Source: Amia ocellicauda (lineage: Eukaryota > Chordata > Actinopteri > Amiiformes > Amiidae). From it: a stretch of 64,000 bases of DNA. Under the pieces are notes generated by a model. It saw only the letters and a list, made by a program, of their open reading frames with translations. It was not told the origin of the DNA and ran no database searches. Every line of letters begins with the position of its first letter. The stretch's first letter is position 1. The stretch lies in the NCBI RefSeq assembly GCF_036373705.1, contig NC_089867.1, forward strand, positions 5,052,501 to 5,116,500, written 5' to 3'. Shown in pieces: positions 2,701-36,021 of this stretch. The translations under genes were made by a program, and so were the position numbers.

Positions 2701-3187
2701 GTAGACATCCACACCACACATGCATTTTTGATTGGAATGTCTTTTCATGAGAATGCTTTAATTTATTACATTTGTAAAAACTGCGACCATTATCAATTAG
2801 TATATAATTTGTATTTTCATGTACAGTGCTTGCATTTTATTCCTCTGATATTACATATAACAAATACACTCAACAGTGATATTCATTTCTTAGTAATTGC
2901 TTTTACAGTGTATGGATATCAATGACAATCTAAACTAAATATAGGTCAATATTTCATACAGTATTATTTATACATTGTTAAGCCTTTAATAATTGCTTCT
3001 CACTACTTATACCTGCTTGTACATCTAGAACAAATACTTATGTCTACATTACACTGCAAAGCCACAACTGTTTCTGTATAAGATTGCTGACTAAAGACCT
3101 AGAGGAAAGTTATGGCAGCTACCAATTTTATACAGGATAGGAATCAAATTTGGTCAGATATTCCACTGTATCTGACATACCTCTGCT
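2701..3187. other. Intergenic, 3' flank of the xylose isomerase gene
   Basis: AT-rich with no coding signal. On the minus strand an AATAAA hexamer at 2836-2841 lies about 350 bases past the xylose isomerase stop codon and is a plausible polyadenylation signal. A second hexamer lies at 2762-2767. Confidence 0.4.
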
Positions 3188-6100
3188 TCACAGGTAATGA
3201 TTAATAATTGATTCATATTTTTCTTGTTTCCCAGATGTGATCTTTGGTTCTCCATTTCTCATGGTAAACTCCTGCAAATAGAGAATAAACAACTGAAGAA
3301 AATTAAATGAATCTAACCCAACTTTGATAAGAAAATCCAATATTATTATTATTGTTCTTGCTGTTAGGCTGAAAGGCTAAAGCCTATTGTTCTTGCTTGG
3401 GAGTTTTTTATATTATTTTCTAGCTTTATATTATATCTACATTATAATGTTAGAATGATTACATAAATGACCATGAAACATATCTATTAGCTACCCTGAA
3501 ATGCAGCATATTACCAAAGTAATCTGATTGGTCAGGTGGCCTGGCACATTAGTATTATTATTTTTTTTACTTTTGTTTGCTCCATTTTTTGCAGAATAAA
3601 TAATTAAATTAATTGGACCTTCATACTTGTTCATTATCTCAATACAGCCTCCATTATATCAAATTAGTTTTTAAATGTTGTATTTGCATAAATAAAATGT
3701 TTATTTTTACACATATAGAGTGCAAGGGTGCCAAAGAAGCAACAATAACAGCAAACTGAATTGGATGATTTCACATTCTAAAACACTGCCATGCGAGTGA
3801 CATCCCTATGGAAAAAATAACCTGAAAGCTGAAAAGTGTAACATAAAATAATTCTGTTTATAAAAGATAACTTAAAGACAGAAGACTTTAAATTATTATT
3901 ATTTTGTTCCTGAATAGTCTGCATTCACATACCTCGTGGGATATTTAGCTGTATTTTTAAATTGATACTATATAATGGAGTTATTTACTACAGCACTAGG
4001 TATCACGTATTGCTCCTGTTAAGCTGGAAAAAGGGCAACGTCAGAAGTAATGTTTACTACCCAACTCTCTGATACATCTGCATTGGTAATGTGTTTTTCC
4101 TCATATGAACAAAACATGTTACAGTTTACCTCCAGTTCCTCCAATGTGGCAGTGCCCTCCTCCACTTTCTGACCAATCCCAGTGCTGAAGCTCAGGTAGC
4201 GTTCCTGTGCAATAAATACAAAAATACTGAAGTCTCCCATGCTGGAGGAGTTGCACTGCAAGTGGCATCAGCTGGTCCTGAATCACCCAACCTAGAATAA
4301 CATTGGGTAGTGCAATGTCTAGTGCTAATCTGGTCTGTGAAACCAGCCCTACCAAGCTTACCTTCACCATCTGTGCAATCACTCCCTCCTCTATGATCTT
4401 CACTGCATTTCTTAGACCCCGTGCAAAGGCATCCATCGCACCGATATGTGCAATGAACAAGTCTTCCAAGTCTGTGGACTCCCGGCGCACTTTGGCATCA
4501 AAATTCAGTCCGCCCGGCTGCAGCCCACCTTGTTCAACTATGCTCTGGGAGAGATACAAGAAACATGGAAAACCAGGCACCTTCTCATCAATGTCTAAGG
4601 GTTAAGAGGTTTGTGTATTACACATGAGAAGAACTGTATTAACTGTTATATCATTAAAGGCATTTTTGTAGAAAGGTTGAATATACACTCACCTAAAGGA
4701 TTATTAGGAACACCTGTTCAATTTCTCATTAATGCAATTATCTAACCAACCAATCACATGGCAGTTGTTTCAATGCATTTAGGGGTGTGGTCCTGGTCAA
4801 GACAATCTCCTGAACTCCAAACTGAATGTCTGAATGGGAAAGAAAGGTGATTTAAGCAATTTTGAGCGTGGCATGGTTGTTGGTGCCAGACGGGCCGGTC
4901 TGAGTATTTCACAATCTGCTCAGTTACTGGGATTTTCACGCACAACCATTTCTAGGGTTTACAAAGAATGGTGTGAAAAGGGAAAAATATCCAGTATGCG
5001 GCAGTCCTGTGGGCGAAAATGCCTTGTTGATGCTAGAGGTCAGAGGAGAATGGGCCGACTGATTCAAGCTGATAGAAGAGCAACTTTGACTGAAATAACC
5101 ACTCGTTACAACCGAGGTATGCAGCAAAGCATTTGTGAAGCCACAACACGTACAACCTTGAGGCGGATGGGCTACAACAGCAGAAGACCCCACCGGGTAC
5201 CACTCATCTCCACTACAAATAGGAAAAAGAGGCTACAATTTGCACAAGTTCACCAAAATTGGACAGTTGAAGACTGGAAAAATGTTGCCTGGTCTGATGA
5301 GTCTTGATTTCTGTTGAGACATTCAGATGGTAGAGTCAGAATTTGGCGTAAACAGAATGAGAATGTGGATCCATCATGCCTTGTTACCACTGTGCAGATT
5401 GGTGGTGGTGGTGGTGTAATGGTGTGGGGGATGTTTTCTTGGCACACTTTAGGCCCCTTAGTGCCAATTGGGCATCGTTTAAATGCCACGGCCTACCTGA
5501 GCATTGTTTCTGACCATGTCCATCCCTTTATGACCACCATGTACCCATCCTCTGATGGCTACTTCCAGCAGGATAATGCACCATGTCACAAAGGTCGAAT
5601 CATTTCAAATTGGTTTCTTGAACATGACAATGAGTTCACTGTACTAAACTGGCCCCCACAGTCACCAGATCTCAACCCAATAGAGCATCTTTGGGATGTG
5701 GTGGAACGAGAGCTTCGTGCCCTGGATGTGCATCCCACAAATCTCCATCAACTGCAAGATGCTATCCTATCAATATGGGCCAACATTTCTAAAGAATGCT
5801 TTCAGCACCTTGTTGAATCAATGCCACGTAGAATTAAGGCAGTTCTGAAGGCGAAAGGGGGTCAAACACAGTATTAGTATGGTGTTCCTAATAATCCTTT
5901 AGGTGAGTGTACAACCCTGTGATGTAACCACCATCTGATTCAGTGACCTTTTTTTCGCAGTTCCCAGTACAAAAGTGACTACCACCGCAAAAAGATGATC
6001 TTTCTCTGAATAATGTGTTTGTTTCATATTCATCTTGTGGCATTTTCTGTATTATTTCTGATGAGGTTCTCAATGGTCATTTTCAATACCTACTGTCTGA

Positions 6101-9100
6101 CACCAAATTTAAACTTAACTCAAAATCTATTTATATGATCCTTTCAAAAGTGCATGTCTAAAATGGTTACAGGTGTATTTTACAGAGGTGGGATTGTATA
6201 TAGGTTAAGCCAGATTACCTTCTGTGATTACTCACCTTCATCACCATAGTGGTATTCTTGATATCCATGGGGAACTGGTCAGTGTCCCAGCCCAAATCTG
6301 GAGAGCCAGTATTGGAATCCACTGAGCCAAGCATTCCAAACCTGCAAACACACAGGGCAGCAGTTCCCATGACACCTCGCTGCCAAAGCTGTCAAAGCAT
6401 GGTATGTGAATCAATTGCTCCATTACTGCAAATCTACATATTTAACGTGCCTAATTACATTGCGGTTTCGGTTATACCACAGGTAATATAATGTCCCCCA
6501 AGACTGATATGTTTTATTTCATTGCAATATAGTCTGCAACCTGCTATGCGTGGGTACTAGTGTTTCCTGCCTGGTGACCCGGGGCACCGAAAACCCGGGT
6601 AACCCACATGATTTCTCAACCCCGCAAGCCCGGGTTTGACATGGGTATAAAACCAGGGTTGAAGGGGAAAAAAAAACATAATTGCGTGCACAGCACAACA
6701 GTGAAATCTTGTATACTTTAGTGTATTTTTTCATTCGGTGAGAAGATTGATGTTCATCAGTAACCTGTTGGCAAAACCTGCAATATAATTGAGCACTTGC
6801 AAAATACAAGGAGTTCAAGAAAAATGTTCCGATCCATGCTCGGTTTGGTTCTACTTCCTATAAGAAGTACACGGCCAATCAGCCAAATGCAAAACGTATC
6901 TAAACAAGGTATTGCAAACAGCTGGGGGCTCTACAAGGTCACTTCAGTTAATTCAAATGATCAATACATAATAACTATGTGAATTAATAAATAATAATAA
7001 TAATGCAAAATACTGAGTTTGTGTTTAATTTCAGCTCAACATAAAATACACACAAAAATGGTGTTTATTATTTTACTTATTTATTATTACTTAGTTGATA
7101 TGGCCAGGGGTTCTAGTTTAATTAATAAAATAAGGGGGAAAACTAAGATTTGAGGAGTTCAGACATACGTTTGATGTGTCTAACAGTGTGAGACAGGGTG
7201 ATGCGTGTGCCTGCAAGGTGCCGTGCCACGCCTGCTGTGCTGAAAGTGTCGTATAATGAGAGAGAGAGAGAGACGCAATCGGAAAAGTTTAGAGTAAGCT
7301 TAGTGTTTTTTATTTAGGCCTATTTAATTTTGTTTCCATATTTTTTACATTTATATGCCTATGAACAGGGGCGGACTGGGACCAAAAACCGGCCCTGGAC
7401 TTTTACCCAGGGGGGCGACGGCTGGTGAATGATGGGTCTCAATAAGGGCGATGTGCGGTTCTGGTTGCCGACGAAGTGCAGTCCAGGGGAAGGCGGCTTT
7501 GGCTTCAAGTCCTGGTGACCTGGGGATCTCGGGTTTATGAATTTTAAACTCCAAAAACCAGGGCCTGGAATTTTCTCCTGGTTTTGGAAACCCTAGTGGG
7601 TGCATTATGTTGTTGGGTTCTCTGTTTTTTCTTTGTGTTTCTTTGAACTCTTCTATTGAAAGATGGCACTGTGGACAGAAGCACTTTACAACAGTAGAGT
7701 GTGACTCAGATGAAAACGGTGATGATTCATGTATGGTAGTGGTACCAAAATTTAACAACGTTCTTGAAGCATAAATGAAGTGATGATGTGGTTAGAACAT
7801 CAGGCTGATAGTGAATACCTTCATTTATTGAATCTGACCAGTATTAAGGGTTAGCTAAAAAAAACAAAATACAATTAAGTAGTTTAATCAAATACATTTC
7901 TAATTTCAAATAGATTATCTGACTCTTCCAGATAGTAGGCATAACATGAAAGTAAGTTAAAGAAATGTGTATCATTTGAATCAATAAAATAAAAATAGTA
8001 AATGTTTCTTAGTCTTGTAGTCCAGTGGTTCTCAACCCTGGTCCTGGAGGACCCCCTACCCTGCTTTTTTGTTACAATTGAGCTCTCAATTACTTATCAT
8101 TAATTGAAGTAATCATTTGCTTATGTTTGACTGAAAAAAGTTAGTTCCTTAATAAGACAATTTCCATATACAAGTTTTTACTTATCGTGAACCCCCTACT
8201 ATTTAAAATAATAAAAAGCTCTGATTTAGGAAATGATTAGTTAAATTAAGGGTTCAATAAAGTAATTGAGAGCTTGGCTGGAACAAAAACCATCAGGGTA
8301 GGGGGTCCTCTAGGACCAGATTTGAGAACCACTGTTATAGTAATTGTGTACTATATAAAATGGTACACGATTTGGTAAATGTTAGTTTCACTTCTTACTC
8401 CGATTGTTGTGAATTACATCATGGTCAGTATTCAATGACTGCTGACTGTACTATACTCAACTGACAAGCCCCTTCTATTTACATCAGACCAGACCTTAAA
8501 CACATGGTCATGGTGACTAATTAAGCCCTGAACCAGTTTAGTTAATGCCAGGTTCAGATCAAACAAGAACCAGGACCAGGGTTGGCCTGTTCTGATGTAT
8601 GTCATAAGACCAAGCATCCTGTTATAAGGAAAATGTTGAAAAACATGTTGTTCCACTTACGCCGAAGCTACGACTATGTCATGCTCGTAGGAATGTCCTG
8701 CCAAAGTGGTGTGATTTGGCTCGATGTTTAACTTGAAGTGGCTGTCAAGCCCGAAGTGCTTCAGAAATCCAATAACACTCATGGCATCTAGCAATGGCCA
8801 GAAAACAGTCATCAGCAAAGATAGATCACATCCAGTAAAAAAATCCAATATAAAAATGTGTATACTGCATATATTATGTATGTATATAATTAATATTTAT
8901 GGTGAAATCTGAAAGCTTGTTTAACAAATACAGTCATTTTACATCTGTATCTTACATTCTGTATATCTGAAAAGAGCTGAGGTGTATATGCAGGGCCTTA
9001 TCCATTTAGTTTTTTCTGAAAACCGAATGTCATTCTTACCGTAATCATATTGATGTCTGCATGGTTCTTTAGGCTTGGGTTCAATAAGAAACTGGCACTT

Positions 9101-12100
9101 CAGACCAATCTTTTCTTTGTAAGCTGCAATGAGTTCAAAGACTTCAGTTATCTGCATTTAGACCAGGACGAGCAAAAAAAATAAAAAAATATATATTTGC
9201 AAGCATTACTCACCCACCGCCATTTTGAAAAAGTTTGCCATGTGTCTCAATTCAGCAGCTACATCAGTGTTGTGGAGAGTCAGATAACCCTCCCTGCCAC
9301 CCCAGAAAACTGGAAGATTATATACAGTAAAACATCAGCATTCATGTGAACTATTGTTGGTTTATCTCCTTCCAGTATAGCAGTAATGCTCCATTAATGT
9401 AGTTTCATTAAACAATTTGGTCACATTCAGTTTAGCAGTTGAACTAAATACAATTTCCAACCTATTGGTTATGAACCACATGTCTTGTGGATAATGCAGC
9501 TGTATTAATACATCATAAAGGGTTGCATCTGTAGTATTGCAACAATGATATATCTTTACTGGAATCCACCATAAATATTCAGGTAGAAGTTTCCAGAAAG
9601 CCATGCCCCAACCTGATTTATATGGTGCAGTTTTTAACTCTGACTGTCTGAAGGGCATTTCTCACCAAAGTTCTCTGCCCCCAGTTTCTTGGCTATTTCC
9701 AATCCTTTCTTCACCTGGGCTCCAGCATAGGCCAGCACATGGGAATCTGGGTTGGTGGCGGCACCATTCATGTACCTGTTATAACCATAGGGGAGATATG
9801 AGGGTTTGAGACTGAGGACTGTGGCCAGCTCAAGGTTACAATCTATTAACATCTTGCCTTTACGGCTCTCTGGCTCAGATCAGTGACATGGGAAGGTCTA
9901 TTCTAACATCAGAAGGGCTGACCTGGGGTGTGCAAAGAGGTTACAGGTGACCCAGAGCACTCTGATGCCCGTTTTCTTCTGAAGCTGAAGGGCCAAGTCA
10001 GTGATTTCAACCAGATTCCTATTAGACTCCTCCAGTGTGGAACCTTCTGGGGCCACATCTCTGTCACAGGGAAAAAGGCATAAACATCAAAGTATAGCAT
10101 CCATCACAATCAAACTTTACCATTTGAAATTTCCCCAATAAGTAATTGTACATTTAATTCACACATATGTTTTGGAGTCTTGCTTACACCATGCATGGTT
10201 AATTACCTCTTCATGACTTTGTACTGAGTTATTTTTTTAGCATATTTAATCAAATAAGACTGCCACCCAGAAAACACAACTGGATATGAAAGGGTAAGAA
10301 CTGATATCAAAGCTAAAAAAATATTTAAAGAGGTAAAGAAGTCAAAAATGTATCTTAAAGGGATCAGCACAATTTTCTATATATGATCAAGTATAGCTGG
10401 AGTCATACCTGTCATGAAAAGTGTAATACTTCACCTAGAGGAGAAAGAAAGCAAATAACTAAAATGTAATACAATATATGTTTATAATATTATACGGTTG
10501 TATTGTAAGAATATACATTAGATCCAAATTAACAATTCTAAATAGCTATAAATCATGATCATAATACAGAATAAATGCAGTTGTATGAATAAATACATGA
10601 ACAGGTAAACAAGTGGGTGTGGGGGGGGTGTGAGCTCACTTACACCTAATTTAGTGAAGAACTCAAAAGCTGCATGCATTCTCCTCTTAGCGGTCTCCAT
10701 TGAATCCTTCCCATCATCCCATGGCCGACACAGTGTGGGAAATCCAAAGGGATCGGCTCCTGAGAGATTAAGAAAAATGGGCTGCAGCACAGGCCAACAC
10801 CTAGGAATCTGGGTTCATGGCAGCACCATGGATTTACTTGTTGTAACCACAGGGGAGATACTGAGACTTAGGACTTCTGCCAGTGTTGAGCTGAAGGTTA
10901 TGGTTTAAATGGACATTAAGTCATCAGAATGAGGTTTTAGAAATTACTTAGCGACCAACTGATTTGGCACCTGAAGTCGCCTGCTGTTTATATTGTGCAT
11001 TTTTGTGTGTGTACATGCTCTACATTTTTCACTGTCCACTTACTGGTGTAATTGGTGTAACATTTATACTTGTTTTGACTGATAAAGGGTTGCTGTTGCC
11101 CTATAAAAGCTGCACTAATGCGAGAGCTCTGTCTGTACATAGAAACCGATTTCTTTCATTGTCCCGCATCCCATTCCCTTGCAAGTAATTTTTGTTTTAT
11201 AGTTGTATTCATCCATATATCTACAGGGGCTACAGGCCACTGTATATAAAACTGGACGGAAGTACACCCCAACCTAGCATTTGTTTTACCCTAATGTCTT
11301 GCTCAATTAGCAGTGTTACCAGCCACCGACATACAAAAACCTTAATTACATTAAAGTATTTTGGTTTTATTTTAGTCATCTTAAATTCTATTTTTAAATG
11401 TTGTTGTACTATCTTATCTTTTAAACAGCTCTTGTGGTTGGAAGTAGGGAATTTAGTATTATTTATAGAAGACCTCTGTCTATTTATACGGGTCTATTGC
11501 TGAACTGATAGATATCTAGTATAGGTTCTTACACTCCTAAAAGCTCTGTTCTCACCAGAGGCATAAAGGCAACACTTTAATCAGCCATTGCAGCACCTGC
11601 CTGGCACCAGAGCAGTATTTTTAAAACACAACAGCAGAATTGCAAGCCAAAAACTAGGTGCGAGCCTCACTCTTCGTGAATAACCCTTTCTGCAAAGCTG
11701 AAGAAATGACTGCCCCTTTTTCTAGAGTTAATCAGTAATCAAAAACCTCCACACTGACTACACACAGAAATGTCAGTTGCAAATGGTGGCAAGCATCACC
11801 AAAGTCATTTTTCATTTCGTGGCTCTGCCTGAAACTCTTACCAGTCCCACGGAAAGTGTGCCAGTAACAAACCGAGAAACTCAGCCAGTCTTCCATTGTC
11901 TTCCCGAGAAGAACCTATACAGTAAGATGGAATAAAAAAATGTAAAGTTTAACACTTCAGTTTGATGCATTCAGAAAAAGATTATAAAATATAAGAAAAT
12001 GTGTTAAAAACTAAAAATAAAGGGCAGAGTATAGGAAGATGAAAGTAGAATATATTATTAATTACCATTTTTATTCAAACTGCCCCATAGTGAGAAAGAC

Positions 12101-13774
12101 TGTATTTTACTTCTGTAGAAATGACTGCTTATTATTTTAGGGATCATCTTTTTCACTTGGGGTGGTCTGTGCGGCCGATACATTAGGAAGCTTACGATGA
12201 CAGCTGTGATCCCTTCTTCTGAAGAACGACCACGGCTTTGGATTTTAATTCTATCTCACCCTGTGCACTCTTGTGTAGGTGCTTTGGAAAAATGTTTAGT
12301 GGCCCTGAGGTAGATCGGGGCTCCCTTCTCATACTAAGTCATATATTCATTCTTCCTGCTTTGTCACTGGTTTATTGTCACTGTCAGGTGGAACCAGTGT
12401 TAATTGATTTGCAGACAGCGTATCTGGGCTGGTATATACCACTGAAAAGTCACACTAAAAGGCAGCCCTTGCTAGTGGTAGAGTCCTAGTAAAATGTTAT
12501 TTAAAAGTTAGAAAAGTTTGTTAGAGGCATTTATGATTCAACTCCATATTGACTGCCTCCTGAATATAATTTAAAAATAAACAGCAATCCTTTAAGTTTC
12601 TTTACTAATTTTGTTGCATGTATTCTTAATTCTGATAACATAATTTAACATTATCCAAAAGCTCAAACAACCTGTTTTGGATGCAGGCTGGGTTAACAAA
12701 ATTATTTGATGAATTAAGAATCTCCTACACGACGAAAAATTATGTTTTCTGTGTTCTCACAGCTTTATTATTGTGGGGTTTTAAAAATCTACTTGTTTAC
12801 CACTCGTTTGGCAGTGTCTATAAATATCTGATGTCCACTGAGGGTAAAAGAAAAGAATAAGACTGATGAGTTGTAGTGAAGCTCACTGAGGAATAACAGC
12901 AGCCGTCTATGCCAGCCTCACCTCTTGGGCATTGTAGTACTTGAAGCCCAACACGTTTCCTGCTCCGGCACCAGCCACATAGGGGATTTTAGAAATACCT
13001 GTGGAAAAGCAGAACGGAAAGCTATGATTGACTAGCATACCGTGCCCAAGTCAGCCCATTCTCTACACTGCGAAGGCAAAATACAGAAAGCAAATCTCTG
13101 AAATGGTCTACAAAGGTGGCAAAACATGAAGAGCAGGGACATCCCACCCAGTACGACCAGAGGGAATTAATTATATTTTTAAAAATAGGGGAAGGAGTGT
13201 GGGAGGAATGAGATCTGTTTGACCTCCACACAATGTGCTTGTTGTGTACCATGACATTTTTTGCTCAATTTAATCATTTACAGGGCTGGTTTCACAGACC
13301 CTGTTTAACACTAGTCTTGGACTTCCCAGTGCTATTTAGGTAGTGCAAGAGCAGTGCTGATCAGGTCTGTGAAACAATGTGACACTAGTATGTTTTTAAA
13401 AACCGAGTCGGCCTACATGTGTTGCAAAAATGATGATTTTACAAAGTCTGGACATGCAATACGTGGCGAAATCAACAAGGAAACCCTTATAAACATAGAT
13501 GTAGCCAGGAAAGCACGTACGCTGAGCGACTTAAAAAATAATAATAACAGGATTTTCTTTATACTGCCGGTATTTTACTGTTAAAACGCATACTATACTC
13601 ATAAACTACAGGCACACGCTTCTATGGGCTTTTGTTCTGGCTGTAAATAACGCAGGAAAGACTCGCAGCGCACTTCTCTACGGATGACGTCAGCATATGC
13701 TTTCCGGCTACAGCCAGGCTGACCAACACGGTGCAATTCAGACACCTACCACGAAAATACTCTTCATCTGCCAT
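3188..13774 (-). CDS. Xylose isomerase (XylA family), complete 14-exon gene
   Basis: The enzyme interconverts D-xylose and D-xylulose (and often D-glucose and D-fructose) using two divalent metals. Minus-strand exons are 13774-13750, 12998-12922, 11914-11842, 10759-10644, 10434-10409, 10060-9923, 9775-9666, 9309-9214, 9123-9040, 8787-8661, 6341-6236, 4544-4362, 4204-4130 and 3271-3188. All introns are GT-AG and phases agree. The 1320 nt give 439 residues; E. coli XylA has 440. Visible motifs include CYWHTF (W52), [10 protein letters not shown] (H104, D107), WGGREGY (W191), IEPKPKEP (E235, K237), LNIEPNH (E271, H274), SVDSN (D299), GWDTDQ (D310, D312) and [11 protein letters not shown] (D342). 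Each lies +3 from the E. coli residue. The C-terminus NHYL also matches. The start ATG has an in-frame stop upstream (13838-13840) with no ATG between. No signal peptide is seen, so it is probably cytosolic. It is unusual in a vertebrate. Confidence 0.95.
4262..4353. mobile_element. MITE-like repeat remnant beside a xylose isomerase splice donor
   Basis: The end tctggtctgtgaaaccagcc (4330-4349) belongs to a common fish MITE type whose end reads gggctggtttcacagacc on the other strand. A related copy is at 13282-13378. The repeat begins only a few bases inside the intron that follows the exon at 4544-4362. Its left boundary is approximate. Confidence 0.5.
4686..5909 (+). mobile_element. Tc1-like DNA transposon, copy 1, inside a xylose isomerase intron
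   Basis: The element is 1224 bp. It has terminal inverted repeats cactcacctaaaggattatt at the left and the reverse complement at the right. It is flanked by TA on both sides (4684-4685 and 5910-5911), the target duplication expected for Tc1/mariner. It carries one plus-strand transposase frame (4834-5877). It lies between exons 11 and 12 of the xylose isomerase gene, in the opposite orientation. A near-identical copy is at 31615-32834. Confidence 0.92.
4834..5877 (+). pseudogene. Tc1-like transposase, disabled by one stop codon
   Basis: The frame starts [19 protein letters not shown] and has paired-type helix-turn-helix DNA-binding regions (for example [15 protein letters not shown]). These are followed by a DDE domain. 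Visible acidic residues are in [15 protein letters not shown] and [12 protein letters not shown], giving the DD34E pattern. A glycine-rich stretch ([14 protein letters not shown]) is typical of Tc1. The frame is open except for TGA at 5305-5307, where copy 2 has CGA, so a CpG-type C-to-T change explains the break. Without it the length would be about 347 residues, normal for the family. It is presumably inactive. Confidence 0.92.
6520..7800. repeat. Unclassified repeat fragments in a xylose isomerase intron
   Basis: The intron between exons 10 and 11 holds a C/G-run-rich block around 6555-6670 (repeated acccgggt words). It also has a (GA)n run at 7256-7272 and a block starting ggggcggactgggaccaaaa at about 7370. 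That starting word recurs at 29231, so the block is interspersed. No protein-coding signal is seen. Confidence 0.45.
8023..8334. mobile_element. hAT-like MITE (312 bp) in a xylose isomerase intron
   Basis: The element begins cagtggttctcaaccctggt and ends with the near reverse complement gatttgagaaccactg. The inner arms (gctctcaattac and taattgagagct) also pair. The 8-bp flanks ttgtagtc and ttatagta match at 6 of 8 positions, consistent with a decayed hAT target duplication. Diverged relatives are at 17720-18015 and 37795-38040. Confidence 0.75.
13282..13378. mobile_element. Short MITE with gggctggtttcacagacc end
   Basis: The ends gggctggtttcacagacc and ggtctgtgaaac are inverted relatives about 95 bp apart. 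It lies in intron 1 of the xylose isomerase gene and is the same family as the remnant at 4262-4353. Confidence 0.6.
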
Positions 13775-13840
13775 CTCCGATAGATTTACACCTTTGAACA
13801 ACAGGGAATTCCACCTCGCTTTCAAAAGTGGTGTCCTCTA

Positions 13841-18800: not shown

Positions 18801-21800
18801 GCAGCTATTGTACTCTAGTTTGGGAAAAAGTAAAACTAAAAAGAGTACAAATAATGTGTGGGTGTCTTTGCACAATTAAGAATCAGAGGTATTCAATTTT
18901 TATCAAATCTGAGTACTGCAAAACTGGAAACAATATGGTTTTGGCTACTGCAGTACAGCCAGAACTTAAGTAAGCTATATTATGTGTTACTACAGACATG
19001 CTATAACACCGTCCAGCATTCCTTTTAAGATTGTTTCCCACAGCTAACTATTCTATATTTTTAATATTCACTATTGTTTTAGTCTTTGAAGTAAATACCT
19101 CAATGGTAAAACTAGCTTTTTAAGTATGTGGCTCCAGTTCTTTTGTTTTTATTGGTTGCATCTTACTACCGCAGACACAGCCGCTGATGTGTACTTTTAT
19201 GCAATAAGTCTTACGACACATTTGCTTTACAAGATCTTCCTTTAAATACAAATAAAAAGGCCAGACTGCATTCAACGAAAAGCAGAACTTAAAAAGTGAA
19301 ATTGAAAATACAAAGCGGTCAAACTTCCATGAACAATGCTCAGCGCAACGATCCACCCCTCCGTCTCTTCATTATTCTTGGAATTGGAAACCTGTTTAAA
19401 AGCTATGCGTTTCCATATTCATTGCAATTGGACACAGTAGGCATGTGTTCTGACATGACCGTGTTTTGGTTACAAAGACATATTAGATTAGAGGGAGTGT
19501 TGTGAAGCAACATACCTGTTGTATGTGTTCCAAACACACCCAAAACCCAAACCTGATGTGGAAAAGAAATACCATGCACACCTTGCAGGGAGAGGGATAT
19601 TTCGGAGATACACTGAAGGTTTCTAGGCAAGCTTAGGCCAGGAGGATAGCTCTCCCTCTTGATAGATTGGCTGTACTGATGCCACCAGTTGGCCCAGAGT
19701 GTGAAATAAAGCACTTGGCGATAAAGTCAGCATTACCACAGACGAGAATCCTGACATTACACTTTTGTTTGCAGTAAGACAATTGCAAGCATACTGCACC
19801 TCTTTCGAACCGCAGCCGCTGATAAAGCTGAACTTGATCAGAAGGGGCCAAGCAGGCAATCTGCAACAAAAGGACAAAGTGAAAGCAATCTATGGCAGCT
19901 TGTAAATAATGCAAACATATAATTTGGGAATAAAGAGAAGCGTGCGATATTGCTGCTGGGCTACTTAAATCCCTTTACAAAAGTGTTGGGGTGGAACGAA
20001 AAACAAAGTCTTTTACAACACACCCGTGCGGCTCCTTTTCCATTGAGAGTACATTTTTCAGAGCAGAAGAGTTTTGGCAATATTCAAAAGTTATGCAAGT
20101 GAACAATTCAATGATCTTGTAGACACTTCCCTTCTGAACACACTGAGAGTGCACAGGAATTTGGCAGTTTTCCCAGGCATTGTGTCATGCATTGTGTCAT
20201 TGTGGCATTGTGTCATGCATATACATGCATACAGTGAGGGAAAAAAGTATATGATCCCCTGCTGATTTTGTACGTTTGCCCACTGACAAAGAAATGATCA
20301 GTCTATCATTTTAATGGTAGGTGTATTTTAACAGTGAGAGACTGTAACAACAAAACAATCCAGAAAAACGCATTTCAAAAAAGTTATAAATGGATTTGCA
20401 TGTTAATGAGGGAAATAAGTATTTGATCCCCTATCAATCAGCAAGATTTCTGGCTCCCAGGTGTCTTTTATACAGGTAACGAGCTGAGATTAAGAGCACT
20501 CTCTTAAAGGGAGTGCTCCTAATCTCAGCTTGTTACCTGTATAAAAGACACCTGTCCACAGAAACAATCAATCAATCAGATTTCAAACTCTCCACCATGG
20601 CCAAGACCAAAGAGCTGTCCAAGGATGTCAGGGACAAGACTGTAGACCTACACAAGGCTGGAATGGGCTACAAGACCATCGCCAAGCAGCTTGGTGAGAA
20701 GGTGACAACAGTTGGTGCAAAATAACAAAATAACTGTCAGTCTCCCTCGGTCTGGGGCTCCATGCAAGATCTCACCTCGTGGAGTTTCAATGATCATGAG
20801 AACGGTGAGGAATCAGCCCAGAACTACACGGGAGGATCTTGTTAATGATCTCAAGGCAGCTGGGACCATAGTCACCAAGAAAACAATTGGTAACACACTA
20901 CACCGTGAAGGACTGAAATCCTGTCGCGCCTGCAAGGTCCCCCTGCTCAAGAAAGCACATGTACAGGCCCGTCTGAAGTTTGCCAATGAACATCTGAATG
21001 ATTCAGAGGAGAACTGGGTGAAAGTGTTGTGGTCAGATGAGACCAAAATCAAGCTCTTTGGCATCAACTCAACTCACCGTGTTTGGAGGAGGAGGAATGA
21101 CCCCAAGAACACCATCCCCACCGTCAAACATGGAGGTGGAAACATTATGCTTTGGGGGTGTTTTTCTGCTAAGGGGACAGGACAACTGCACCGCATCAAA
21201 GGGACGATGGACGGGGCCATGTACCGTCAAATCTTGGGTGAGAACCTCCTTCCCTCAGCCAGGGCATTGAAACTGGGTCGTGGATGGGTATTCCAGCATG
21301 ACAATGACCCAAAACACACAGCCAAGGCAACAAAGGAGTGGCTCAAGAAGAAGCACATTAAGGTCCTGGAGTGGCCTAGCCAGTCTCCAGACCTTAATCC
21401 CATAGAAAATCTGTGGAGGGAGCTGAAGGTTCGAGTTGCCAAACGTCAGCCTCGAAACCTTAATGACTTGGAGAGGATCTGCAAAGAGGAGTGGGACAAA
21501 ATCCCTCCTGAGATGTGTGCAAACCTGGTGGCCAACTACAAGAAACGTCTGACCTCTGTGATTGCCAACAAGGGTTTTGCCACCAAGTACTAAGTCGAAG
21601 GGGTCAAATACTTATTTTCCTCATTAACATGCAAATCAATGTATAACTTTTTTGAAATGCGTTTTTCTGGATTTTTTTGTTGTTATTCTGTCTCTCACTG
21701 TTAAAATACACCTACCATTAAAATTATAGACTGATCATTTCTTTGTCAGTGGGCAAACGTACAAAATCAGCAGGGGATCAAATACTTTTTTCCCTCACTG

Positions 21801-31614: not shown

Positions 31615-32834
31615 CACTCACCTAAAGGATTGTTAGGAACACCATACTAATACTGTGTTTGACCCCCTTTCGCCTTCAGAACTGCCTTAATTCTACGTGG
31701 CATTGATTCAACAAGGTGCTGAAAGCATTCTTTAGAAATGTTGGCCCATATTGATAGGATAGCATCTTGCAGTTGATGGAGATTTGTGGGATGCACATCC
31801 AGGGCACGAAGCTCCCGTTCCACCACATCCCAAAGATGCTCTATTGGGTTGAGATCTGGTGACTGTGGGGGCCAGTTTAGTACAGTGAACTCATTGTCAT
31901 GTTCTAGAAACCAATTTGAAATGATTCGACCTTTGTGACATGGTGCATTATCCTGCTGGAAGTAGCCATCAGAGGATGGGTACATGGTGGTCATAAAGGG
32001 ATGGACATGGTCAGAAACAATGCTCAGGTAGGCCGTGGCATTTAAACGATGCCCAATGGCACTAAGGGGCCTAAAGTGTGCCAAGAAAACATCCCCCACA
32101 CCATTACACCACCACCACCAGCCTGCACAGTGGTAACAAGGCATGATGGATCCATGTTCTCATTCTGTTTACGCCAAATTCTGACTCTACCATCTGAATG
32201 TCTCAACAGAAATCGAGACTCATCAGACCAGGCAACATTTTTCCAGTCTTCAACTGTCCAATTTTGGTGAGCTTGTGCAAATTGTAGCCTCTTTTTCCTA
32301 TTTGTAGTGGAGATGAGTGGTACCCGGTGGGGTCTTCTGCTGTTGTAGCCCATCCGCCTCAAGGTTGTACGTGTTGTGGCTTCACAAATGCTTTGCTGCA
32401 TACCTCGGTTGTAATGAGTGGCTATTTCAGTCAAAGTTGCTCTTCTATCAGCTTGAATCAGTCGGCCCATTCTCCTCTGACCTCTAGCATCAACAAGGCA
32501 TTTTCGCCCACAGGACTGCCGCATACTGGATGTTTTTCCCTTTTCACACCATTCTTTGTAAACCCTAGAAATGGTTGTGCGTGAAAATCCCAGTAACTGA
32601 GCAGATTGTGAAATACTCCGACCGGCCCGTCTGGCACCAACAACCATGCCACGCTCAAAATTGCTTAAATCACCTTTCTTTCCCATTCAGACATTCAGTT
32701 TGGAGTTCAGCAGATTGTCTTGACCAGGACCACACCCCTAAATGCATTGAAGCAACTGCCATGTGATTGGTTGGTTAGATAATTGCATTAATGAGAAATT
32801 GAACAGGTGTTCCTAATAATCCTTTAGGTGAGTG
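31615..32834 (-). mobile_element. Tc1-like DNA transposon, copy 2
   Basis: The element is 1220 bp and nearly identical to copy 1 (4686-5909). It has the same cactcacctaaaggatt ends and TA flanks inside a TA tract. Its transposase is on the minus strand. It is followed after only 14 bases of TA by a truncated third copy. Confidence 0.92.
31647..32686 (-). pseudogene. Tc1-like transposase, disabled by a one-base deletion
   Basis: The frame starts [19 protein letters not shown] and is open past the codon where copy 1 has its stop. It breaks near 32055, where copy 1 reads gtgccaattggg and this copy reads gtgccattggg, a one-base loss. The remainder (to [10 protein letters not shown] at 31650) continues in another frame. 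DD34E motifs AWSDES, DNAPCHK and [10 protein letters not shown] are all present. The two copies therefore carry different lesions. Confidence 0.92.
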
Positions 32835-34954: not shown

Positions 34955-36021
34955 ATGCATTCCTCTAATGCAAAGGATAACCCCTGTCTGTTCAACGCCT
35001 ATTGTGATGTAAAGGAGAACAATGAGCTGAGGAAGGAGTCCTATAAATCAACGTGGCTGGATCTGGTCATGGAAAGACGCCCTGAGGAAAAGTAAGTATT
35101 CAACTGAAAAGTTTTAATATTTAAAAGTATATAAAAAACACCATTCCAAATGAGCCAAATATCAGTATTTGTATCTTCTTGAAAGTCATTGCTTTGTGTC
35201 TCCAGAAACGTGGTTGCCTTAAATTAAACAAGCAGAATGAATAATCAGATTAAGGGTGATCGTACTTTAAGGAAGCTTAGAAAACAGCCTTGATATTATT
35301 TTAAAAGTGGCTCAAGTAAAATATGGTTATATTCAAGTTTGCTGTGTTACAAGCTAATATAACATGCTTGTGAATTACAAAAATGATCAAGGGAAAAATA
35401 CAATATTATACTTCTCATAACCTATGGGTAAGAAGTTTTTTAAATGATATATTAAAGACATAAATATGGATATTTTCCATGAAGGTGATTTATACACAAA
35501 TTTCTTTGGATGATAAGTAACTGATATACTCCAGTACTAATGTTGAGCAGTACTGAATTGCATGGGGAAACTGAGCTACTAGTGCTGACAACCTCCTGTT
35601 ACCCTTTTGCAGGACGACTCTCTTTGAAAATGACATGTCGCGGAAGGAGACCTACGAGAAGAAGCACATCGCTTATTTTCTAGTACAGAGACACCCCGCC
35701 CAGAAGATAAAGCTGGGGAGACTGGGGGAGAAGATGAAGGAATACCAGCTTCCATACAAGCTGCCTCTACCCATCTTTGTGCCCAGCAAAGCTGTGTCCT
35801 CAAAGGAGCGTGACCGGGCACCCACGCCAGCAGAACTGAAAGGCATCATGGAGTTCGAGAGTGCCTTGTCCAGCGGCCTGAGCAGAGACAGGAGAGAACT
35901 ATCTGAGATCAAGAAAGAAATGCCCAAAGTGATCCAGCCTAACCAGTTAAGCTTCAGAGCCTCCAGTCTCATTTCTCCCCCCAATGTGCCTGGCCAGTTT
36001 GAGGCTGTCCAAAGAAGCTAG
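34955..36021 (+). CDS. Two-exon gene of unknown function (181 residues)
   Basis: Exon 1 is 34955-35091 (ATG to GAGGAAAA|gtaagt). Exon 2 is 35613-36021 (ttttgcag|GACGACT to TAG). Joined, they give 181 residues in one frame. I do not recognise the family. The protein starts MHSSNAKDNPCLFNAYCDV and is hydrophilic and basic in the middle (RKETYEKKHIAYFLVQRH). It has a Pro-rich patch (YKLPLPIFVPSK) and ends NVPGQFEAVQRS. No signal peptide, membrane segment or catalytic motif is visible. Codon use and GC content in exon 2 are clearly higher than in the flanks, and both splice sites fit consensus, which supports a real gene. Small fish genes of this style are often ciliary or testis proteins, but that is only a guess. 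AATAAA at 36771-36776 or 37180-37185 could end the transcript. Confidence 0.75.

Follow-up and report, generated by a model that had tools for sequence, protein, structure and literature searches.

An unbroken gene for a predicted class II D-xylose isomerase on a chromosome of the fish Amia ocellicauda

The genome of Amia ocellicauda carries a gene that is very probably a working nuclear gene for a class II D-xylose isomerase, present in a single copy as far as searched, which would descend from early animals and have been kept in this fish. Its exon structure, open frame, family, conserved residues and animal neighbourhood can all be read from the window, by which we mean the whole stretch of 64,000 nucleotides that was analysed. 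In textbooks xylose isomerase belongs to microbes and plants, and animals process xylose via reductases; no mammal is known to have the enzyme. The gene is real and unbroken, and the surprise is its vertebrate host, not the protein itself.

Gene structure

Splicing of the 14 exons (Table 1) produced 439 codons and a stop in one open frame, and all 13 introns were bordered by GT and AG. At the junction of exons 8 and 9, exon 8 ends at 9214 with the donor GTGAGT, while exon 9 starts at 9123 after a CAG acceptor. An unbroken protein of 439 residues, claimed in an earlier note on this DNA, is therefore what the gene encodes. The CpG observed/expected ratio reached 1.07 at 13400–13800, a peak over the gene start, and this peak together with the AATAAA signal beyond the stop is weakly suggestive of a live gene. 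Rfam at gathering thresholds and ARAGORN gave no matches on the window.

Table 1. Features of the xylose isomerase gene and its surroundings (positions in the window)
Feature	Position	Strand	Basis or remark
Xylose isomerase gene, ATG at 13774, stop at 3188	13774..3188	-	splice reconstruction
Exon 1, start codon	13750..13774	-	splice model
Exon 2	12922..12998	-	splice model
Exon 3, W52	11842..11914	-	splice model
Exon 4	10644..10759	-	splice model
Exon 5, 26 bases, H104	10409..10434	-	splice model
Exon 6, D107	9923..10060	-	splice model
Exon 7, F188	9666..9775	-	splice model
Exon 8, W191	9214..9309	-	splice model
Exon 9, E235 and K237	9040..9123	-	splice model
Exon 10, E271 and H274	8661..8787	-	splice model
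Exon 11, D299, D310 and D312	6236..6341	-	splice model
Exon 12, D342	4362..4544	-	splice model
Exon 13	4130..4204	-	splice model
Exon 14, stop codon	3188..3271	-	splice model
AATAAA polyadenylation-like signal	2836..2841	-	~350 bases beyond stop; consensus match only
Further polyadenylation-like signals	ATTAAA 2985-2990, AATAAA 2762-2767	-	consensus match only
Decayed duplicate of exon 7 (part) with the intron upstream of it	10778..10900	-	within intron 3
Tc1-type transposon copy, two open stretches	4834..5877	+	inside intron 11; type by likeness to known Tc1 transposases
Squalene monooxygenase	3' side of gene		sequence match; more exons in left flank by eye
IBR-domain protein	17.4-17.8 kb		Pfam domain match
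Telethonin	35.6-36.0 kb		Pfam domain match
SDHA	49.5 kb		sequence match
VWA-domain protein	59.5-60.3 kb		Pfam domain match

Enzyme family and conserved residues

Against TIGR02630, the NCBI equivalog profile for class II XylA, the spliced protein scored 655.8 bits over profile positions 1–435 of 435, with a curated cut-off of 533.25 bits, and it matched PDB 1a0d with an E-value of 4.1e-153, which excludes a chance resemblance. Eight PDB chains that we take to be class II aligned over nearly the whole protein at 478–513 bits, and chains presumed to be class I gave about 80–101 bits in partial alignments beginning at residue 52 or later; the distant chain 3ktc gave 31 bits. We assign the predicted protein to class II rather than class I.

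Twelve residues that presumably serve in metal binding and catalysis, as in the bacterial enzymes (W52, H104, D107, W191, E235, K237, E271, H274, D299, D310, D312 and D342), were all present in the spliced protein, as the earlier note had said of ten while naming twelve. The near-gapless co-linearity that it had also described was borne out in a comparison with 79 bacterial relatives, which yielded one insert column, gapped in more than half of the bacterial rows, and no deletions, defined as a gap in the fish protein where more than half of those rows are filled. The fish protein kept 89 of the 92 columns invariant in these relatives, the three misses being E17A, Y188F and A300S, as well as 122 of the 134 columns conserved at at least 95%, figures that are somewhat flattering because the relatives were chosen by likeness to the query. 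The protein is thus like the class II bacterial xylose isomerases (TIGR02630; PDB 1a0d, 1a0c and 1a0e) in length, in its near-gapless full-length alignment and in the 12 active-site residues, whereas the gene differs from theirs in having 13 introns and lying on an animal chromosome.

Expected function

The protein would be an oligomer of TIM-barrel subunits, located in the cytosol and binding two divalent metals; it would open the sugar ring and then carry out a metal-assisted hydride shift between C1 and C2. This is the chemistry expected of the family, given the metal ligands, His104/Asp107 and Lys237. It would convert D-xylose to D-xylulose (EC 5.3.1.5), and perhaps D-glucose to D-fructose as well; D-xylulose would then pass through xylulokinase into the pentose phosphate pathway, and the animal may in this way recover the xylose that it takes in with algae, plants or prey.

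When the genome was searched with a 46-residue XYLB fragment, identical to PDB 4bc2 (XYLULOSE KINASE), a single xylulokinase-like exon was found on contig C2 (E 2.3e-9, 78% over 32 of the 46 query residues), and this one matching exon points to a xylulokinase in the same genome. An FGGY_C profile search of the genome gave four matches (L084, L085, L086 and L087), which were rejected as xylulokinase candidates, since none of them resembled that enzyme; from their translations we take L084 to resemble FGGY and L087 to resemble GK5, while L086 lies close to L084 on the same contig.

We consider it unlikely, if worth weighing, that the gene encodes an intact enzyme with the same chemistry whose main substrate is not xylose but, for instance, glucose/fructose or another aldose. 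The diet of a carnivore may be poor in free xylose, and glucose and fructose are substrates of some xylose isomerases according to PMC6139898; against this, the 12 listed active-site residues are unaltered in the fish protein, and the thraustochytrid T18 enzyme, as described in that paper, had no glucose/fructose activity in the authors' assay. The T18 enzyme was reported to be active on xylose, and a eukaryotic member of the family can therefore act on this sugar. Like the fish protein it is eukaryotic and 439 residues long; unlike the fish gene, its gene comes from a protist and is described there as a 1.32-kb open reading frame (PMC6139898). A D-xylose isomerase is accordingly the function that we prefer.

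Origin of the gene

The bacterial comparison covered the best 80 of 215 loci. Identity to the loci returned was at most 62%, the closest being two Fibrobacterota loci at 62% and 59%, followed at 55% by Planctomycetota and two gammaproteobacterial loci. Two trees, which contained the fish protein and bacteria and no other eukaryote, both placed the fish protein beside two Fibrobacterota, at 97/79 with a branch of 1.02 in the tree of 80 rows, and at 90/60 with a branch of 0.64 and no starred set in the tree of 33 rows. Judging from its position in the trees, the gene may have an old origin in Fibrobacterota, and bacteria may long ago have been the source from which eukaryotes first received it. 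That any sampled bacterium donated the gene recently seems unlikely, because the best returned match was 62% and the branch is long.

Xylose isomerase is named in several other animals in published papers. An Arctic charr transcriptome includes a contig of that name, in one table row that could be mislabelled (PMC5007756), a crab transcript (PMC9312322) and the snail protein XP_025110989.1 (PMC8533556) are annotated as xylose isomerase, a scallop match (XP_021350524.1) was suspected by its authors to come from a neighbouring gel band (PMC12357810), and octopus ink peptides were assigned to an oyster xylose isomerase-like protein (PMC10142993). The likeness of the charr, crab, snail and scallop entries to the fish gene is by name, and likeness at the peptide level comes from PMC10142993 only. 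The peptide LGAENFVFWGGR from that paper equals residues 183–194 of the fish protein at 12 of 12 positions, F188 included, and FSVCFWHTFR agrees with it at 9 of 10 positions, while a third peptide, FCCLYIFNK, has no match in it. Residue 188 is Y in all 79 bacterial rows and F in none of them, and the C of FSVC is present in 22 of the 79, so that only F188 is distinctive. The proposed kinship with animal genes draws on the 12-residue identity, the 9/10 peptide and the annotations in these papers. F188 is by itself a thin signature, but an old animal gene is favoured once the occurrence of the name in molluscs, a crab and a salmonid is added to it.

Some papers were set aside as support. Both xylose isomerase peptides in the isopod paper PMC6798089 fail to match the fish protein, and the beetle, nematode and sponge papers concern gut microbes or a mere Pfam domain name. 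As a separate observation, the peptide LGAENFVFFHPR, labelled glucose-6-phosphate isomerase in the isopod paper, aligns to residues 183–194 at 9 of 12 positions, and the labels there may be shifted.

A later horizontal transfer, from a Fibrobacterota-like donor into an ancestor of the fish and followed by the gain of 13 introns, is improbable. It would account for the Fibrobacterota loci being the closest returned and for their grouping with the fish protein in the trees, but the branch is long in both, no close donor appeared in the best 80 of 215 loci, and 13 introns are present; moreover, F188 is common to the fish protein and the oyster/octopus peptide and foreign to the bacterial rows, and the papers cited above give the enzyme's name to entries from molluscs, a crab and a salmonid. 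The earlier note had left open an ancient animal gene or an acquisition that gained introns; the former is now the better supported, by the animal annotations, the peptide identity and the distance of the returned bacteria, and a recent acquisition has lost ground.

Constraint on the gene

The copy of exon 7 within intron 3 matched the original at 77% over 124 columns and at 81.7% over 60 exon bases. Two in-frame stops were found in the duplicate, read in the exon frame, and none in the true exon 7, suggesting from this one short comparison that the gene is likely to be under constraint. That it is a pseudogene or a dying gene is very unlikely: three otherwise invariant residues have indeed changed, but 439 codons run without a stop or frameshift, the active-site residues are complete, and exon 7 itself is intact where its duplicate has decayed.

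Genomic setting and copy number

The gene lies on contig C24 (28,146,611 bases) of a genome of 988 Mb in 385 contigs. No second copy was seen in a whole-genome protein search in which 11 candidates were scored, as all 12 matches fell inside this gene. A PF01261 profile search of the genome gave one match (L081, on contig C25), which was absent from the xylose isomerase search results and was rejected as a second copy, and two pattern matches on viral contigs were not relatives.

The genes around it include squalene monooxygenase, telethonin and SDHA (Table 1), and with its 13 introns the gene is chromosomal and set between animal genes, as the earlier note had proposed; a vertebrate chromosome is supported by the match to telethonin, which is not known outside vertebrates. 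Genome size, the Tc1-type elements and the shortness of the introns are in keeping with a ray-finned fish. The VWA-domain gene presumably resembles a collagen VI chain, and we take the gene at 40.4–41.1 kb, for which a Pfam search gave no match, to resemble CCDC127. Transposons had been reported inside the gene, and intron 11 indeed holds a copy which we take to be Tc1-type by its likeness to known Tc1 transposases, and transposase domains were found by domain search on a second Tc1-type copy at 20706–21590. Bacterial contamination or an assembly artefact, suggested by the mainly microbial occurrence of xylose isomerase, is refuted in practice by the exon–intron structure with its 13 introns, in company with the Tc1-type transposons within the gene and close to it, the animal genes on either side and the 28.1-Mb contig.

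Significance

The finding is not new in kind, because papers already name xylose isomerase in other animals. In the open PMC literature, among the titles and abstract beginnings of the matches listed, none had a vertebrate xylose isomerase as its subject.

To our knowledge, the enzyme has been lost in most vertebrates, including land vertebrates. Whether some vertebrates keep a complete bacterial-style xylose route (xylose isomerase and xylulokinase) or an ATP-free glucose–fructose isomerase, so that an enzyme thought absent from jawed vertebrates would have been lost separately in several lineages, is a proposal whose chances we regard as evenly balanced. An unbroken gene in a vertebrate makes it testable whether fish can make use of xylose in their diet or employ its products as signals; the time of the presumed loss of the enzyme in land vertebrates becomes testable likewise. 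The gene may also have a bearing on plant-based feeds in fish farming.

Features in and around the xylose isomerase locus

Within the xylose isomerase gene, the decayed duplicate, which covers part of exon 7 and its upstream intron, is interrupted by two stop codons when read in the frame of that exon. The window and the flanking stretch L082 hold several transposons of the Tc1 type that fall into two or more kinds, with the type tested by domain in one of these copies. Elsewhere in the genome, the separate AP_endonuc_2 match (L081) was absent from the matches of the whole-genome search performed with the 439-residue xylose isomerase. In an isopod paper (PMC6798089), the labels of the peptides given for xylose isomerase and for glucose-6-phosphate isomerase may be off by one entry.

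Collagen-like and VWA-like exons, recognized by eye, extend past the window into the flanking stretch L083. We take them to resemble a collagen VI chain.

Locations of the features
Feature	Position	Strand	Remark
Decayed copy, part of exon 7 and upstream intron	window 10778-10900		in intron 3 of xylose isomerase gene
Telethonin stretch	window 35575-36018	+	
Collagen-like and VWA-like exons	L083, about 3900-7000	+	by eye
AP_endonuc_2 match (L081)	G000:C25:14520656-14520787		contig other than that of xylose isomerase gene
Tc1-type copy	window 4834-5877		in intron 11 of xylose isomerase gene; type by likeness to known Tc1 transposases
Tc1-type copy	window 31647-32686		
Tc1-type copy	window 20706-21590		type tested by domain
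Tc1-type copy	L082, up to 9326	minus	

Near the telethonin stretch, the window carries SDHA and a gene that we presume to be CCDC127-like, and the gene order around these three may aid in tracing the locus in other fish.
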